Below are positions 13,480-35,000 of a DNA stretch of 64,000 nt, one piece after another. The DNA is taken from NCBI GenBank assembly GCA_902573385.1, contig CACGJS010000001.1:35137-99136 (forward strand), in the 5' to 3' direction. The position numbers were made by a program, and so were the translations under genes. The stretch's first letter is position 1; each line of letters begins with the position of its first letter. The notes beneath the pieces were generated by a model. The model was not told where the DNA came from. It worked only from the letters and a program-made list of their open reading frames with translations, and did not search any database. This DNA is from an uncultured Pelagibacteraceae bacterium (lineage in GTDB: Bacteria > Pseudomonadota > Alphaproteobacteria > Pelagibacterales > Pelagibacteraceae).

Positions 13480-14562
13480 TTAACTGCACTGGGCTTTATG
13501 CATTAAATAATGATCTAATAGCACACAGTTTAACATTGCTTCGCCTACTGGAACAGCACGTATTCCTACACAAGGGTCATGTCTACCTTTTACTGAGATA
13601 GTTGTGTTTTTTCCAAACTTATCAATTGTTTTTCTACTTTTTAAAATTGATGAAGTTGGTTTAACTGCAAAAGAAATCACAATTTCTTGGCCACTTGAAA
13701 TTCCTCCTAGTATGCCTCCTGCATTATTTGATTTAAATATTAATTTTTTCCCTTTTTGTGAAATTTCATCAGAATTTTGTTCACCAGTCAATTGTGCTGA
13801 GTTCATTCCTGAACCTATATTTACACCTTTAACAGCATTAATGCTCATCATAGCAGAAGCAATATCCATATCTAATTTTGAATAAATGGGAGCACCTAAA
13901 CCAGCAGGAATTCCTCTTGCTCTTACTTCTATAATAGCACCACATGAAGATCCAGACTTTCTAATGCTAAGTAAATATTTTTCCCATAATTTTACAATCG
14001 ATTTATCAGGACAGAAAAATGGATTTTTTCTAATTGTTGAGTCATTCCATTTGTTTAAATCACACCCAAGTATTCCTAATTGAGTTACTGCACCAATAAC
14101 TCTAAATTTTTTACCTATTTTTTTTTCTAAAACTTTTTTTGCTATTGCACCAGCTGCCACTCTTGCTGCTGTTTCTCTAGCAGAAGATCTTCCACCACCT
14201 CTGTGGTCTCTAATTCCATATTTTTTAAAGTATGTAAAATCTGCATGTCCTGGTCTGAATTTATTTTTAATAGTTTCATAGTCTCTAGACCTCATATCCT
14301 TATTATAAATAATTAGAGAAATAGGTGTTCCAGTTGTTCTACCTTTGAATACTCCTGATAGAATTTGTACTTTATCATCTTCTTTTCTTTGAGTTGTAAA
14401 CTTAGATTGACCAGGTTTTCTTTTATTAAGTTCTATTTGAATATCTTCTTCTTTTATATCAATATTTGGTGGGCAACCATCAATTATACAGCCTATAGCA
14501 GGTCCATGTGACTCGCCCCATGTAGTGAAACGAAATAGCTTTCCAAAAGTATTAAATGACAT
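13480..14562 (-). CDS. aroC: Chorismate synthase
   Basis: It removes phosphate from EPSP to form chorismate, the last common step to the aromatic amino acids and folate, using reduced FMN. Family signatures are visible: [17 protein letters not shown] at residues 17-33, the R-rich [24 protein letters not shown] near 119-142, and [17 protein letters not shown] near the C-terminus. Length 360 is normal. It is convergent with dxs and divergent from pdxH with 33 bases between start codons, a region that must hold both promoters. Confidence 0.97.
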
Positions 14563-20090: not shown

Positions 20091-22753
20091 TGAAAAAACT
20101 AATTTTAAACTTTAAATCAAAAGAGTCGAAAAAACTAAAAAATCCAAAAAATTTTCTTGGAGGAAAAGGTGTAAATCTTTCTCAAATGGGAAGAATGGGA
20201 CTACCTGTTCCACCTGGATTCACTATTTCAACTAACGTTTGTAAATTATTCTATCAAAATAATAAAAAACTAAATACTAAGATATTAAATGATATTAAAA
20301 ATCAATTAAAAATTATTGAAAAAGATTCTAATAAAAAATTTGGAGACTTAAAGAATCCTCTACTTGTATCTGTAAGGTCGGGGGCAAGAATTTCGATGCC
20401 TGGTATGATGGATACAATATTAAATTTAGGTTTAAATGATAAAACTGTTTTAGCCTTAGCCAAAAAAACTTCAAATATGAGGTTTGCAAAAGATAGCTAT
20501 AGAAGATTTATTCAAATGTATAGCAATGTCGTAATAGGTATAGAAAATTACAATTTTGAAGAATTAATTGAAAATTATAAGTTAACTAAAGGTGTTTTGC
20601 TAGATACTCAGTTGGATGAAAATGATTGGGATGGTTTAATTCATGACTTTAAAAAAATCATAAAAGAAAAAACAAAAAAAGATTTTCCACAAAATGTTTT
20701 TGATCAATTAAACGGAGCTATTAGTGCAGTGTTTTTATCATGGGAGAGTAATAGAGCGAAAGTTTATAGAAAATTAAATCAAATTCCATCAGATTGGGGT
20801 ACTGCAGTTAATGTTCAATCAATGGTTTTTGGTAATATGGGAAATGATTGTGCAACAGGAGTTGTCTTTACAAGAAATCCATCTGATGGAAAAAATGAAA
20901 TTTATGGAGAATATCTAATAAATGCTCAGGGTGAAGATGTAGTAGCTGGAACAAGAACACCTCAATACATTACTAAAAAAGCCAGAAAAAATGCAAAGGC
21001 AAAAGAAAAGTCTATGGAAGAGTCAATGCCAAAAGTATTTAAACAACTAGTTAAAATTTTAAAAGTACTAGAAAAATATTATAAAGATATGCAAGATGTC
21101 GAATTTACAGTCGAAAATAATAAATTATGGATGCTACAAACTAGATCAGGTAAAAGGACTTCTAAATCTGCAGTTAAAATAGCAGTAGATATGGTTAAAG
21201 AAAAACTTATTTCAAAAAAAGAAGCAATATTGAGAATTGACCCAAGTTCTTTGGATACATTGCTACATCCAACACTAGATGAAAAAAGTTCAATAAATAT
21301 TATAGCGAATGGTTTACCAGCCTCTCCAGGAGCTGCATGTGGAAAAGTTGTTTTTTCTTCAGATGAAGCTGAAAGATTAAATTCGATGATGCAAGATACT
21401 ATTTTAGTAAGAATTGAAACTTCACCAGAAGATATTCATGGAATGCATGCTGCAAAAGGAATTTTGACAGCAAGAGGCGGAATGACGAGTCATGCTGCAG
21501 TTGTAGCAAGAGGAATGGGAAGACCCTGTGTTTCAGGTTCGAGTGAAATTGATATTGATTACGAAAGAAGAAGATTTAAAACTTCATCTGTAGAAGTTAA
21601 AGAAGGTGATATAATTACCATTGATGGTTCATCTGGAAGAATTATTTTAGGAGAAGTAACAACAGTTAAGCCAGAAATTTCGGGAGATTTTTCAAAACTA
21701 ATGAATTGGGCCGATAGATATAGAAAATTAAAAGTTAGAACAAATTCAGAAACACCACTTGATACAAAAACTGCTAGAGACTTTGGTGCTGAAGGTATAG
21801 GTCTTTGTAGAACAGAACATATGTTTTTTGACCAAGAAAGAATTTTATCTGTTAGAGAGATGATTTTATCAAAAACAATTGAAGATAGAAATAAAGCATT
21901 AGACAAACTCTTGCCTCATCAAAGAAAAGATTTTACTGAAATATTTAAAATTATGTACGATCTACCTGTAACAGTAAGGTTACTAGACCCTCCGTTGCAT
22001 GAATTTCTTCCTAAGACTGAGAAGGAAATCAATGATATTGCAAAAGTAGTAGAGTTACCTTTAAAGGAAATTGAGTCAAGAATTAATGAATTACATGAAC
22101 AAAACCCTATGTTAGGACATAGAGGATGTAGATTAGGTATCTCATTTCCAGAAATTTACGAAATGCAATGTAGGGCAATTTTTGAAGCATTATCAGAGCT
22201 TAAGATTAAAAAAATAAAATCAGCTTTTCCTGAAATTATGATCCCATTGGTTTCAACCGAAGCAGAAATAAGAATTATGAAAGAATTAGTTGTAAGAATA
22301 GCAAATGAAGTTCAAAAGAAAAAAAATATTAAAATTGATTATACTGTAGGAACTATGATTGAGTTGCCAAGAGCCTCCTTAAAAGCAAAGGATATAGCGA
22401 AACATGCAGATTTTTTTAGTTTTGGAACTAATGATTTAACTCAAACGACATTTGGTTTAAGTAGAGACGATAGTGGAAAGTTTTTGAATGACTATATCGA
22501 AAATAAAATATTTTCTATCGATCCATTTATATCAATTGATGATGGCGTAGCTGATTTAATTGAAATTGCAACTGAAAGAGGAAGAAAACAAAATAAAAAA
22601 ATTAAACTTGGAATTTGTGGAGAACATGGTGGTGATCCCAAGAGCATTCGTTTTTGTGCGGAAACAGGGCTAGATTATGTTTCTTGTTCTCCTTATAGAG
22701 TTCCCGTAGCGAGATTAGCGGCTGCTCAAGCCGAATTATATAAAAAAAATTAA
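20090..22753 (+). CDS. ppdK: Pyruvate, phosphate dikinase
   Basis: It interconverts pyruvate, ATP and phosphate with phosphoenolpyruvate, AMP and pyrophosphate, and can serve gluconeogenesis. The N-terminal nucleotide-binding domain begins GGKGVNLSQMGRMGLPVPPGFTIS. The central phosphohistidine domain has GGMTSHAAVVARGMGRPCVSG near residues 460-480 with the catalytic His. The C-terminal PEP-binding barrel contains GAEGIGLCRTEHMFF and ends with GICGEHGGDPKSI, whose Cys is the catalytic acid. Length 887 is typical. The start is GTG, overlapping the glyS TAG; the same glyS-ppdK linkage occurs in other Alphaproteobacteria. Its stop shares TTAA with nadC. Confidence 0.97.
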   Translation: MKKLILNFKSKESKKLKNPKNFLGGKGVNLSQMGRMGLPVPPGFTISTNVCKLFYQNNKKLNTKILNDIKNQLKIIEKDSNKKFGDLKNPLLVSVRSGARISMPGMMDTILNLGLNDKTVLALAKKTSNMRFAKDSYRRFIQMYSNVVIGIENYNFEELIENYKLTKGVLLDTQLDENDWDGLIHDFKKIIKEKTKKDFPQNVFDQLNGAISAVFLSWESNRAKVYRKLNQIPSDWGTAVNVQSMVFGNMGNDCATGVVFTRNPSDGKNEIYGEYLINAQGEDVVAGTRTPQYITKKARKNAKAKEKSMEESMPKVFKQLVKILKVLEKYYKDMQDVEFTVENNKLWMLQTRSGKRTSKSAVKIAVDMVKEKLISKKEAILRIDPSSLDTLLHPTLDEKSSINIIANGLPASPGAACGKVVFSSDEAERLNSMMQDTILVRIETSPEDIHGMHAAKGILTARGGMTSHAAVVARGMGRPCVSGSSEIDIDYERRRFKTSSVEVKEGDIITIDGSSGRIILGEVTTVKPEISGDFSKLMNWADRYRKLKVRTNSETPLDTKTARDFGAEGIGLCRTEHMFFDQERILSVREMILSKTIEDRNKALDKLLPHQRKDFTEIFKIMYDLPVTVRLLDPPLHEFLPKTEKEINDIAKVVELPLKEIESRINELHEQNPMLGHRGCRLGISFPEIYEMQCRAIFEALSELKIKKIKSAFPEIMIPLVSTEAEIRIMKELVVRIANEVQKKKNIKIDYTVGTMIELPRASLKAKDIAKHADFFSFGTNDLTQTTFGLSRDDSGKFLNDYIENKIFSIDPFISIDDGVADLIEIATERGRKQNKKIKLGICGEHGGDPKSIRFCAETGLDYVSCSPYRVPVARLAAAQAELYKKN

Positions 22754-24578: not shown

Positions 24579-24650
24579 ATCTAAACTTATCAATCAGCAA
24601 GCATCATGTCATTTTATTATTGGTCGCATAAATATTGAAAAATCCATATT

Positions 24651-24916
24651 TTAAGGGGCGTTCTGTTACCCGGTGCCCCAGACCGTGCTTTTATGATTAA
24701 CCTAGGTTAATTATGCAGCAAGTGCGTAACTTTCGTTAGCATTTAAAGTTTAGCCCGTTGCGGTGGAACAATCCCGAACGAAAGAATAGCCTTTAGTCAC
24801 CCGTCGATCCTATTTCACCCCCATAAGTTGCAAATGGTGGAGGTGGTGGGTACTGCCCCCACGTCCGTAATGGTTATTACGAAATTCGTTTATCGTCGTA
24901 GTTGGCAAGCCAACGC
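24651..24916 (-). ncRNA. ssrA: Transfer-messenger RNA, circularly permuted two-piece form
   Basis: tmRNA rescues stalled ribosomes. Read on the minus strand, the gene begins with the acceptor piece (about 24916 down to 24835), which ends in the strand CACCTCC plus ACCA. A 12-base spacer (24834-24823) follows, then the coding piece starting GGGGGTG at 24822. GGGGGTG pairs with CACCTCC over seven positions with one G-T pair, rebuilding the tRNA-like acceptor stem across the spacer. The coding piece has GGATCGACGG and the tag reading frame at 24740-24711, encoding ANESYALAA then TAA. A perfect TTAACCTAGGTTAA palindrome (24697-24710) and a GGGGC/GCCCC helix (24655-24679) follow. Both outer ends are approximate. 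Permutation is known in Alphaproteobacteria. Confidence 0.93.
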
Positions 24917-24920
24917 TATT

Positions 24921-24948
24921 AATATAAAAGCATTTACAAGAGATTCAA
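24921..24948 (-). promoter_or_regulatory. Candidate sigma-70 promoter for ssrA
   Basis: On the minus strand TTGAAT (24943-24948) and TATATT (24921-24926) are 16 bases apart, placing the transcript start about at 24914-24916, where the acceptor-piece hairpin GTTGG-CTTG-CCAAC begins. The element lies in the 40 bases between ssrA and the divergent thyX. Confidence 0.5.
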
Positions 24949-30666: not shown

Positions 30667-30852
30667 ATGAAAGAGCTAATTATAGCTTTAGGTCTTTTTC
30701 TTTTTATTGAGGGAATTTTATATGCCTTATTTCCATCAAAAATGAAAAATATGTTAAAAAAAATGGAAATGATTAAAGATAACCAATTACGATCTGGTGG
30801 ACTTATATTTGCACTGATTGGTTTTATTATAATTTGGTATGCTAAAAGTTAA
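30667..30852 (+). CDS. DUF2065 (YjeT-like) small membrane protein
   Basis: A 61-residue protein with two hydrophobic segments: residues 3-20 (ELIIALGLFLFIEGILYA) and 43-58 (SGGLIFALIGFIIIWY), joined by a basic loop. The FPSKMKNMLKKM stretch and the final RSGGL...IIWY pattern match the DUF2065/YjeT family, whose genes commonly follow hflC. No biochemical function is known; position suggests a link to HflKC or DegP activity in the envelope, which is inference. The next gene begins two bases after its stop. Confidence 0.82.
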   Translation: MKELIIALGLFLFIEGILYALFPSKMKNMLKKMEMIKDNQLRSGGLIFALIGFIIIWYAKS

Positions 30853-30853
30853 T

Positions 30854-32269
30854 ATGAGTAAAATTCGAAAATTATTAATAATTTTTTTTATAGTTGTTTT
30901 TACACCTAAGATTTTTGCAAAAGAAGCTCCAGCATCTTTTGCTGATTTGGCCGAAAAATTAATGCCATCAGTGGTAAATATCTCCACTACCACAACTGTT
31001 ATTACTAATACCAATCCTTTTCCAGGTTTTAAATTTCCTCCAGGATCACCTTTTGAAGATATGTTTAAAGAATTTGGGACTCCTCAAAAAAGAAAGTCTG
31101 CAGCTTTGGGATCAGGATTTATAATTGATGAAAAAGGAATTGTAATAACAAATAATCATGTAATTCAAGACGCAGAAGATATTCTTGTAAGGGTTGGGGG
31201 TGATAAAGAATATAAAGCTACACTAATTGGTGCAGATCCTTTGTCAGATATTGCGGTTATTAAGATAAACTCAAAAGAAAAATTTATTCCAGTAAAGTTT
31301 GGTGACTCAGATAAAGCAAGAATTGGAGATTGGGTAATTGCAATAGGTAATCCATTTGGTTTAGGTGGAACAGTAACCACAGGAATTATTTCAGCAAGAA
31401 ATAGATCAATTGGACTTTCGAGATATGAGGATTATATTCAAACTGATGCCTCAATCAACTCTGGGAATTCTGGGGGGCCTTTATTTGATATGGACGGTAA
31501 TGTTATTGGCATTAACACAGCAATTTTAGGTCAATCAGGTTCAATTGGTATAGGTTTTTCAATTCCATCTAATAGCGCAAAAAAAGTTGTAAGCCAGTTA
31601 ATAGAATTTGGTGAAACTAAAAGAGGATGGCTAGGAGTTAGAATTCAAGTAGTTACACAAGAAATTGCCGATATAGAAAAGCTAGGTGATCCTAGAGGTG
31701 CATTAGTTGCAAGTGTTGCAGAAAAAAGTCCATCAGACAAAGCAGGTATCAAGGCAGGAGATATTATATTGGAATTCAATGGTACAAAAATTAAAGAAAT
31801 GAAGGAACTTCCAAAGATTGTTGCCCAAACTGAAGTTGGAAAAACTGTAAATGTTAAAGTATGGAGAAATAAAAAAGAGATTAATAAAAAAATTAAATTA
31901 GGTAGATTAGAGACATCAAGTGATTTTAAAAAGAAAGAACTTAAAAAGTCTGAAGAAGAAAAACAAATAATTTCAGAAATAAAATCTTTAAAAATCACAG
32001 TAAGACTATTAAATAAAAAAGATATTGAACAAAGAAAACTTCCAAACCAAACAACAGGATTAGTTATAACTAATATTGGTAAAAGTAGTCCAGTTAAAGA
32101 CTTAAATATAGGCGATATAATAGTTGAGGTTCAAAAGAAAAAAATCAAATCTATAAATCAACTTATAAATATAGTAGACACTGCTTTAAAATCTGATCAA
32201 AAAACAATCTTGATTGCAATCTATAATAATCAAAACCAAAGAAGATATATTGGTATTAAATTAGATTAA
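30854..32269 (+). CDS. degP: Periplasmic serine endoprotease, DegP/HtrA family
   Basis: A periplasmic protease-chaperone for misfolded envelope proteins. The signal peptide is MSKIRKLLIIFFIVVFTPKIFA, with cleavage likely after FA near residue 22. The catalytic triad is His102 (TNNHVIQ), Asp132 (LSDIAVIK) and Ser206 (NSGNSGGP). Two PDZ domains follow: the first around GWLGVRI to about residue 345, the second at the C-terminus with GLVITNIGKSSPVKDLNIGDIIVEV. I chose the ATG at 30854 over one at 30839, because the latter overlaps the DUF2065 gene and adds only MLKVN before the signal peptide. It completes the hflK-hflC-DUF2065-degP quality-control cluster. Confidence 0.93.
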   Translation: MSKIRKLLIIFFIVVFTPKIFAKEAPASFADLAEKLMPSVVNISTTTTVITNTNPFPGFKFPPGSPFEDMFKEFGTPQKRKSAALGSGFIIDEKGIVITNNHVIQDAEDILVRVGGDKEYKATLIGADPLSDIAVIKINSKEKFIPVKFGDSDKARIGDWVIAIGNPFGLGGTVTTGIISARNRSIGLSRYEDYIQTDASINSGNSGGPLFDMDGNVIGINTAILGQSGSIGIGFSIPSNSAKKVVSQLIEFGETKRGWLGVRIQVVTQEIADIEKLGDPRGALVASVAEKSPSDKAGIKAGDIILEFNGTKIKEMKELPKIVAQTEVGKTVNVKVWRNKKEINKKIKLGRLETSSDFKKKELKKSEEEKQIISEIKSLKITVRLLNKKDIEQRKLPNQTTGLVITNIGKSSPVKDLNIGDIIVEVQKKKIKSINQLINIVDTALKSDQKTILIAIYNNQNQRRYIGIKLD

Positions 32270-32271
32270 TA

Positions 32272-33214
32272 ATGGACAAGCTGTCCAAGATTTTTTTTAA
32301 TTTCAGGTCCTACTGCTTCTGGTAAATCTAGTTTAGCAGTAAAAATTGCTAAAAAAATTAATGGAGAAATTATTAACGCAGACAGTATGCAGGTTTACAA
32401 GAAATTAAAAATCTTAACTGCTAGACCAAGTAAAAAAGAACAAAAAAATATCAAACATCATTTGTATGGAATAATTGATCCAGACAAAAAATTTTCTACA
32501 GGACAATGGTTAAAAGAAACAGTCAAAATTATTAAAGATATTCAAAAAAGAAATAAAATTCCGATATTAGTTGGTGGAACTGGCTTATATTTTTATTCAT
32601 TAATTAATGGTTTGGTTAAAATTCCAAAAATTCCTCTTAAAATTAGAAATAAAGTTAGATTAATACAAAGTAAAATAGGTCAAAAAAATTTTTATAAGAA
32701 ACTTAAAAAACTAGATCCAAATATTAAAAATAAATTTGATCCAAATGACTCGCAAAGATCGATAAGGGCCTATGAAATTAAATTATTTACAAAAACCTCT
32801 ATGTATGAGTGGTTTAATAAAACTGAGTCAAAATTTAAAGATAGTGAATTTTTAAAATTATATATAAATTTTAAAAGAGATGAGCTTGTCGAGAGAATTT
32901 CATTAAGAACATCGAGAATGATTGAAGAAGGCGCAATTGAAGAAGTAAAAAGATTTAATAAATTGAAGATTAAAAAAGAAAATAGTGTGAATAAAGTGAT
33001 TGGGATTGTCGAATTGACACAGTTTTTAAAAAATCAGATAAATCTAATTGAAGCTAAAGAGTTAATCTCTATTAAAACTAGACAATACGCCAAAAGACAA
33101 GCTACTTGGGCAAGAGGTAGAATGAGTTCTTGGAAAAAAATTAATCCAGCTAAAATTAGAGACTTCATAAAAAAATTAAATAAATCATCTCTTAAACTTG
33201 ACCAATTAACATAA
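32272..33214 (+). CDS. miaA: tRNA dimethylallyltransferase, with an apparent +1 frameshift at a T8 run near the start
   Basis: MiaA adds a dimethylallyl group to A37 of UNN-decoding tRNAs. The body is intact: GPTASGKSSLAVKIA (P-loop), INADSMQVYKK, LVGGTGLYFYSLI, and KTRQYAKRQATWARGRM near the end. The frame carrying the P-loop has no ATG, GTG or TTG between the in-frame stop at 32270-32272 and the P-loop. The first in-frame ATG (32387) lies after it. The ATG at 32272 overlaps the DegP-side spacer but is one frame off and stops after 17 codons. Removing one T from the T8 run at 32291-32298 joins them, giving MDKLSKIFLISGPTASGKS, a normal MiaA start, and 313 residues. This is a sequencing indel, a decayed start or slippage. 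Confidence 0.85.
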
Positions 33215-33233: not shown

Positions 33234-35000
33234 ATGGGTAATTTATATTCAGGAGCAGAAATTGTTTTTAAGTGTTTGGAGGATCAAAAAGTTGATTATA
33301 TTTTTGGTTACCCAGGAGGAGCTGTACTTCCAATATATGATGAATTAAAAAATCATCCATCAATTAAACATATTTTGGTTAGACACGAACAAGGAGCAGG
33401 TCATGCCGCAGAAGGTTATGCAAGGTCAAGTGGAAAACCAGGAGTTGTACTGGTTACTTCAGGTCCAGGTGCAACAAATGTTGTAACAGCATTAACCGAT
33501 GCTTATATGGATTCAGTTCCATTAGTTTGTATTTCAGGTCAAGTACCAACACATTTAATTGGAACAGATGCCTTTCAAGAGTGTGATACAACAGGAATTA
33601 CTAGACCTTGCACAAAACATAACTGGTTAGTTAAAGATATAAATGATCTTCCAAGAATAATGCATGAAGCATTTGATGTTGCAACGACAGGTAGACCAGG
33701 ACCAGTATTGGTCGACATCCCGAAAGATATTCAGTTTGCAAAAACAAGGTATCTGAAACCTAAAAAAGAGAAAAAAATTAATGGAAAAGTTATTAATAGA
33801 TTTAATCAAAAAGATATAGATCATTTAATAAATTTAATGAGCAAATCATTAAAACCAGTTTTTTATACTGGGGGCGGAGTAATTAATTCAGGACCAAAAG
33901 CAAGTGAACTGTTAAGAGAGCTAGTTTCTTTAACTGGATTTCCAATTACATCAACATTGCAAGGATTAGGAGCATATCCAGGAGATGATAGTCTGTTTTT
34001 AGGCATGCTGGGCATGCATGGAACCTATGAGGCAAATAATGCAATGCATGATTGTGATTTATTAATTAACATTGGTGCCAGATTTGATGATCGTATCACA
34101 GGAAAGATAGACGAATTTTCTCCAAAATCAAAAAAAGTTCATATTGATATTGATCCATCCTCAATTAATAAAATTATAAAAGTAGATTTATCTATTGTAG
34201 GAGATGTTAGTGATGTAATTAGATCTACAATCAAAACTTTAAAAAAGAAAAATTTAAAATTAGATAAATCAAACAAGCAAAAAATTTCAAAATGGTGGCA
34301 ATTAATTCAAAAATGGAGAACAAAAAACTCTTTAAATTTTATTAACAGTGATGAAATTATTAAGCCTCAGCATGCAGTAAAAAGACTCTATGAATTAACT
34401 AAAGATAAAGACACATTTATAACAACTGAAGTTGGACAACACCAGATGTGGGCTGCTCAACATTATAAATTTAATAAGCCAAATAGATGGATGACATCTG
34501 GAGGACTTGGAACTATGGGATATGGTTTGCCTGCAGCAGTTGGAGTGCAAGTTGCAAATCCTAAAAAATTAGTAATTGACATTGCAGGAGAAGCTTCAAT
34601 TTTAATGACTATGCAAGAGATTTCGACAGCTGTTCAATACAATTTACCAGTTAAAATTTTTATTTTAAACAATCAATATATGGGAATGGTTAGACAGTGG
34701 CAGGAATTACTCCATGAAAAAAATTATTCAGAAAGTTATTCTGAAGCTTTACCTGATTTTGTAAAATTAGCTGAAGCTTATGGATGCATAGGAATTAGAG
34801 CTAAATCACCAGATGAACTTGATAAAAAAATTAAAGAAATGATCGATATAGATAAACCAGTGATTTTTGATTGTCTTGTTGATCAGGATGAAAATTGTTT
34901 TCCTATGATACCGTCAGGCAAGCCTCATAATCAAATGCTTTTAGGTCCTAAAGATCAAGAAGAAAATAAGATTAAAGGTAAAGGAAAGGTATTGGTTTGA
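33234..35000 (+). CDS. ilvB: Acetolactate synthase, large (catalytic) subunit
   Basis: A thiamine diphosphate enzyme making acetolactate or acetohydroxybutyrate, the first common step to valine, leucine and isoleucine. The N-terminal GYPGGAVLPIYDEL and RHEQGAGHAAEGYARSSGKPG (catalytic Glu in HEQGAGHAA) are near residues 25-70. The FAD/central domain and the C-terminal TPP domain (DIAGEASILM to LNNQYMGMVRQW) follow. The metal-binding motif reads GEAS where GDGS or GDAS is more usual. Length 588 is typical. The gene is followed after one base by the regulatory subunit and then by ilvC, forming ilvB-ilvN-ilvC. Confidence 0.96.
   Translation: MGNLYSGAEIVFKCLEDQKVDYIFGYPGGAVLPIYDELKNHPSIKHILVRHEQGAGHAAEGYARSSGKPGVVLVTSGPGATNVVTALTDAYMDSVPLVCISGQVPTHLIGTDAFQECDTTGITRPCTKHNWLVKDINDLPRIMHEAFDVATTGRPGPVLVDIPKDIQFAKTRYLKPKKEKKINGKVINRFNQKDIDHLINLMSKSLKPVFYTGGGVINSGPKASELLRELVSLTGFPITSTLQGLGAYPGDDSLFLGMLGMHGTYEANNAMHDCDLLINIGARFDDRITGKIDEFSPKSKKVHIDIDPSSINKIIKVDLSIVGDVSDVIRSTIKTLKKKNLKLDKSNKQKISKWWQLIQKWRTKNSLNFINSDEIIKPQHAVKRLYELTKDKDTFITTEVGQHQMWAAQHYKFNKPNRWMTSGGLGTMGYGLPAAVGVQVANPKKLVIDIAGEASILMTMQEISTAVQYNLPVKIFILNNQYMGMVRQWQELLHEKNYSESYSEALPDFVKLAEAYGCIGIRAKSPDELDKKIKEMIDIDKPVIFDCLVDQDENCFPMIPSGKPHNQMLLGPKDQEENKIKGKGKVLV

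Follow-up and report, generated by a model that had tools for sequence, protein, structure and literature searches.

Frameshifts in poly-A and poly-T tracts are known from Buchnera and Blochmannia, where single-base indels in A/T runs interrupt otherwise intact core genes of AT-rich, reduced genomes (PMC3017870; PMC5009743), and those of Blochmannia are conserved. In a Roseiflexus insertion sequence, a 6-bp inverted repeat lies just 5′ of the slip site, U5C5, and synthesis of the transposase requires transcripts that lack one base (reviewed in PMC5009743). Deletion slippage by Escherichia coli RNA polymerase on T8 restored a reporter at ~10% (PMC6260861), whereas a transcriptome-wide survey covering E. 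coli and Buchnera showed homopolymer slippage to be mainly insertion and never observed a restored frame (PMC5574713). Other described systems concern RNA structure and the control of translation. A structure over a start codon beside an upstream stop is a recognized layout for translational coupling, as in the RNA-unfolding model (PMC12548453), and E. coli miaA is controlled posttranscriptionally by CsrA/CsrB (PMC12249760). Conserved RNA structures have been described from Pelagibacter in a survey that was aimed at long intergenic regions and whose main text does not mention miaA (Meyer 2009, PMC2704228).

Here, we describe the start of miaA in an uncultured Pelagibacteraceae bacterium; the window is the whole stretch of 64,000 nucleotides that was analyzed, and coordinates are positions within it. 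The gene and both of its neighbors lie on the plus strand. Directly upstream is an htrA/degP-type serine protease open reading frame (30839 to 32269; NCBIfam TIGR02037 above cutoff), whose end also adjoins miaA in the relatives that were read, and next in the run is an ilvB-type acetolactate synthase large subunit gene (33234 to 35000; NF006581 above cutoff). The protease stop codon, TAA at 32267 to 32269, ends 2 nt 5′ of the ancestral miaA start, an ATG at 32272 to 32274 from which nearly all genus relatives are aligned in frame. As assembled, this ATG and the remainder of miaA are in different frames: the ATG opens a frame of 17 codons (32272 to 32325; stop TAA at 32323 to 32325) that encodes MDKLSKIFFNFRSYCFW. 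The MiaA frame, at +1 relative to the ATG, is closed upstream by a TAA at 32270 to 32272, is open from 32273 to 33214 (313 codons), and reads WTSCPRFFLISGPTASGKS... Between 32273 and the P-loop GPTASGKS (32306 to 32329) it holds no ATG, GTG, or TTG. The sole near-cognate start near the P-loop is an ATT at 32300, and the first in-frame ATG, at 32387, begins an open reading frame (32387 to 33214) whose product of 275 amino acids lacks the P-loop. Removal of one T from a run of eight (T8, 32291 to 32298) makes the start of the gene MDKLSKIFLISGPTASGKS and regains the genus-typical MiaA N terminus, MDxxSKI[IF]LISGPTASGKS. An earlier note on this DNA had claimed that the P-loop frame lacks a standard start, that the ATG at 32272 lies in another frame with a stop after 17 codons, and that deletion of one T yields a normal N terminus, and all three readings were borne out. 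The same note did not see that a conserved hairpin lies 3 nt 5′ of the T run, nor that a −1 shift leads into the wrong frame.

That hairpin (TGGACA-AGC-TGTCCA, 32273 to 32287) overlaps the start codon and matters more than the T run. In the window it has 6 pairs, 3 of them G-C, a predicted folding energy of −5.7 kcal/mol, and a spacing of 3 nt (AGA) to T8. Across 98 genus sequences the consensus is TGGAY-N5-RTCCA, and in all but a few the first codons of the gene are ATG GAY NNN NNR TCC AAR. Of the five consensus pairs, the innermost joins two wobble positions and is C-G in 63 sequences, T-A in 32, and something else in 3. Among the matches listed in the larger set of genus genomes, a few exceptions are U-G (G187, G357, G368, and G399) or C-A (G202, G275, and G363). 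When 51 distinct sequences were compared, pairing was found in 99.6% of cells, versus 6 to 46% when the partner was slid. Serine codon 5 is TCC in 97 of the 98 sequences, a codon that accounts for 3.2% of serine codons genome-wide and that is used at two other conserved miaA serines in only 4/95 and 2/95 sequences. Likewise, GAC occurs in 62/98 sequences against a usage of 16.9%. A fixed rare TCC together with a raised GAC indicates that the bases, and not the amino acids alone, are under selection. Since the wobble pair switches just 2 to 3 times on a tree of 61 sequences, a paired-change count that is not significant and too small for a covariation test, the hairpin is supported chiefly by the fixed rare codons where its bases pair and by the control in which the partner was slid. 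Taken as a whole, these comparisons are strong evidence for base-level constraint at the miaA start and good, if not conclusive, evidence that the bases pair.

The hairpin is absent from the sister family f2 (most of L071 to L090) and has been lost in a few members of the genus (L048, L183, and L187). Two of these, the single-cell genomes AG-359-P07 (L183) and AG-333-N06 (L187), belong to one subclade; miaA seems to start at a TTG directly before TCC AAA in the former, and the latter has no clear standard start. This subclade offers a natural control for hairpin function. In another relative (G036, locus L058), miaA starts at codon 4 (ATG TCC AAA), AAG having replaced the ancestral ATG, while the stem GGAC...GTCC is kept, which amounts to a natural separation of the hairpin from the start codon. 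We asked whether an equivalent hairpin occurs at other starts and found none at the 219 other candidate starts common to this genome and G213, a nearly complete relative at ~79.5% protein identity; miaA was itself unscored in that scan since its start is out of frame, and by sequence it would have passed. No relevant Rfam match was found at the hairpin, nor did we find an earlier report of it, and we consider it a real, modest finding. It resembles the structured RNAs described from Pelagibacter in being a conserved RNA structure in the same genus, and it differs in that the survey was directed at long intergenic regions (Meyer 2009, PMC2704228). The miaA hairpin is constrained and probably regulatory, an RNA structure placed where a coding sequence begins, in a group that ranks among the most abundant of marine bacteria. 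The gene that carries it encodes a tRNA-modifying enzyme, and the hairpin itself is small, genus-wide, and easily tested by reporter fusions. To our knowledge, few posttranscriptional controls have been described in this group.

Apart from its start, miaA appears undamaged. The otherwise intact coding frame (32300 to 33214) matches TIGR00174 at 266.5 bits against a cutoff of 148.65, over profile positions 4 to 278 of 288, and also matches PF01715. Divergence from five close relatives at codon positions 1, 2, and 3 is 15 to 21%, 10 to 13%, and 36 to 39%, respectively; none of the 61 columns that are invariant in 60 relatives of the genus has changed; and the gene is no farther from outgroups than is ordinary. 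These patterns indicate that the MiaA frame is under purifying selection and that miaA either still functions or ceased to do so very recently. Decay as a pseudogene was rejected, as neither codon-position divergence nor the invariant columns give any sign of it. The family assignment thus stands, for a gene that as assembled is frame disrupted, with start codon and P-loop not in one frame. It is the sole miaA copy found in this genome, which is 61% complete.

The extra T appears to be private to this genome. A length-flexible pattern for the start region matched 275 of 399 genus genomes, and the region measures 44 nt in all ~155 relatives among the matches listed and 45 nt here; when the pattern was held to the +1 spacing, it matched this genome alone among the 399. 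In four relatives (G071, G245, G275, and G295), the corresponding site reads TTTTTTTAAT, with an in-frame T7, which together with the difference in length suggests that the window departs from its relatives by one T added to a seven-T stretch. The earlier note had proposed comparing T-run length among related SAR11 genomes, and that comparison gave no T8 at the miaA start in any relative under the +1 pattern. Close relatives do not initiate at another in-frame start, which the note had also considered: apart from a few exceptions such as G036, those read have an in-frame ATG followed by M-D-x-x-S-K, a hydrophobic strand, and the P-loop. Neither genome contigs nor viral contigs gave an exact match to the start region, and hence no second copy of the species for comparison. 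We think it probable, with considerable confidence, that the extra T is an accident private to this genome, introduced in error during assembly or amplification or else by recent mutation.

An assembly indel at the poly-T, which the earlier note had raised, thus survives as a live explanation, although the assembly is not generally riddled with indels. We compared ~450 kb of this genome, roughly half of it, with ~800 kb of G213. The conserved coding DNA came to 190 kb, in which 194 A/T runs of length 8 and 118 of length 9 to 12 are in frame, leading us to reject a general homopolymer-indel problem. One further disruption was seen in those 190 kb, a number that is a lower bound because the check is blind to indels near gene ends, of the miaA type. 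That disruption affects an lnt-like gene (apolipoprotein N-acyltransferase, by resemblance only; G000:C7 ~13734 to 13815, locus L128) adjoining an A16 run, where a few residues of the G213 protein are missing and the sequence looks like a collapsed low-complexity stretch. As a solitary event, the one in miaA is about as compatible with a rare error of assembly or amplification as with a recent mutation. Since other T8 runs were assembled in frame, a random assembly error in the miaA run would be infrequent. Living lineages should seldom carry a frameshifted core gene, and on that ground error seems slightly more likely than real mutation. We envisage an ordinary, constrained miaA starting at ATG 32272, in which codons 7 to 9 would have turned into seven consecutive Ts, a state that a few relatives show, and in which this stretch would then have gained one more T, by amplification or assembly (slightly likelier) or by a recent private mutation in the cell or lineage. 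Such a frameshift would be neither programmed nor inherited. If T8 is genomic, it would probably lower MiaA function without abolishing it: most transcripts would give the 17-residue peptide, and a minority, in which U8 had become U7, would encode MiaA. The T8 itself carries little weight; annotation as a probable error or private mutation suits it better than citation as a recoded gene.

Other readings of T8 assume that it is real and that MiaA is made all the same. With the nascent hairpin as an aid, RNA polymerase might skip one U within U8, so that a mixed mRNA pool gives reduced but sufficient MiaA. The direction of slippage fits, since loss of one base restores the frame; a hairpin of 6 pairs followed by 3 nt and U8 scores as terminator-like; the Roseiflexus element sets a precedent for a 6-bp stem at a slip site with transcripts minus one base; and the ~10% deletion slippage on T8 in E. 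coli leads us to expect leaky, not null, MiaA if T8 is genomic. However, the miaA stem is weaker (−5.7 kcal/mol, 3 G-C pairs) and stands 3 nt from a homopolymeric U8 rather than next to U5C5, slippage on homopolymers is mostly insertion, and T8 is private to one genome. That the rest of miaA is undamaged accords with slippage but is equally expected under an error or a very recent base. The locus is like the Buchnera and Blochmannia cases in that a core gene, intact elsewhere, has a single-base indel within an A/T run, in an AT-rich reduced genome, and unlike them in that the run is only 8 long, is common to no relative, lacks the conservation seen in Blochmannia, and is known here from genomic sequence alone (PMC3017870; PMC5009743). 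Retention of the frameshift between strains or species was not found; it is unique among the 399 genus genomes. The hairpin, for its part, is kept in relatives without the T run and so did not evolve for slippage, and we found no evidence that the T8 arrangement is under selection. We therefore regard slippage as an unlikely source of MiaA. The earlier note had suggested a possibly slippage-dependent miaA, which as an established mode is not supported, there being no T8 in any relative; its remark that poly-T runs are known for frame-restoring slippage holds for the E. coli reporter (PMC6260861) but not for the E. coli and Buchnera transcriptomes (PMC5574713). Programmed −1 frameshifting does not describe the locus, as ribosomes slipping by −1 on the U run would enter the wrong frame and +1 is needed. 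A +1 shift, for which UUU-U would permit re-pairing after the step, would have to occur where frame 0 has no stop or evident slow codon, that frame continuing to 32325. Alternatively, translation might begin elsewhere in the MiaA frame. ATT serves as the start codon of infC in E. coli, so the ATT at 32300 has a precedent, but its use would cost the segment before the P-loop, and the ATG at 32387 would cost the P-loop itself, whereas relatives retain the ATG and MDxxSKI. We consider an alternative start or a +1 shift most improbable. The SAR11 lineage is free-living, unlike Buchnera and Blochmannia.

As to what the hairpin does, the reading that we prefer, at about even odds, is that it masks the miaA start and couples translation to the upstream htrA/degP-type gene, so that miaA would be translated chiefly by ribosomes finishing that gene. 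Position and conservation suggest this: a predicted, conserved structure overlies the start codon, and the upstream stop, 2 nt before the ATG here, falls at about −4 to +4 nt in 93/98 sequences by a rough scan. The arrangement shares with the RNA-unfolding model an upstream stop within a few nucleotides of a start under predicted structure, and it differs in that the hairpin is very small, lies almost wholly inside the downstream reading frame, and is only predicted to make miaA depend on upstream translation (PMC12548453). The same overlap with the start codon would suit a translational repressor, and MiaA itself could be one, the hairpin serving as an operator that mimics the anticodon arm of tRNA-Phe, a MiaA substrate, and through which MiaA not engaged with tRNA would repress translation of its own mRNA. 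The GAT-class core GGAUUUAAAAUCC is one base off the anticodon arm GGAUUGAAAAUCC of the G213 tRNA-Phe. If so, a tRNA-modifying enzyme would set its own level by sensing unmodified tRNA. But the loop varies, being AAGCU in the window and AAACA, AACCA, or ATTCG in its clade, without A36-A37-A38; a loop with U33 and A36-A37-A38 occurs in the GAT class only and neither in the window nor in its clade, and most A-A loops follow simply from the lysine codon. Imitation of the tRNA-Phe arm, with binding and perhaps prenylation by MiaA, is accordingly quite unlikely. Were the dyad instead a DNA operator for a transcription factor, its perfect symmetry would be explained, but it lies downstream of the start codon and inside a gene run, and its paired wobble positions change together, which a dimer reading its half-sites separately would not require. 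A genome-wide operator was rejected because the genome has no more than 3 sites, a number close to that of the control, and we judge a DNA operator of any kind very unlikely. Control by CsrA was rejected as well, no CsrA having been found in the 21 genomes searched; the locus resembles the E. coli case in posttranscriptional control of miaA, predicted on the Pelagibacter side, but the element is a different one (PMC12249760).

Two further RNA genes were noted along the way. A tRNA-Phe was called at L126 2451 to 2525 (G000:C5 ~22451 to 22525) on the minus strand, at the place of the G213 tRNA-Phe and beside a cold-shock-like gene. It is unusual in being 75 nt long with a T loop of TGCGAAT rather than TTCGANT, and the G213 tRNA-Phe used as a query had no close match elsewhere in this incomplete genome. 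Within the window, ARAGORN identified a tmRNA gene on the minus strand at 24620 to 24930, with the tag ANESYALAA.
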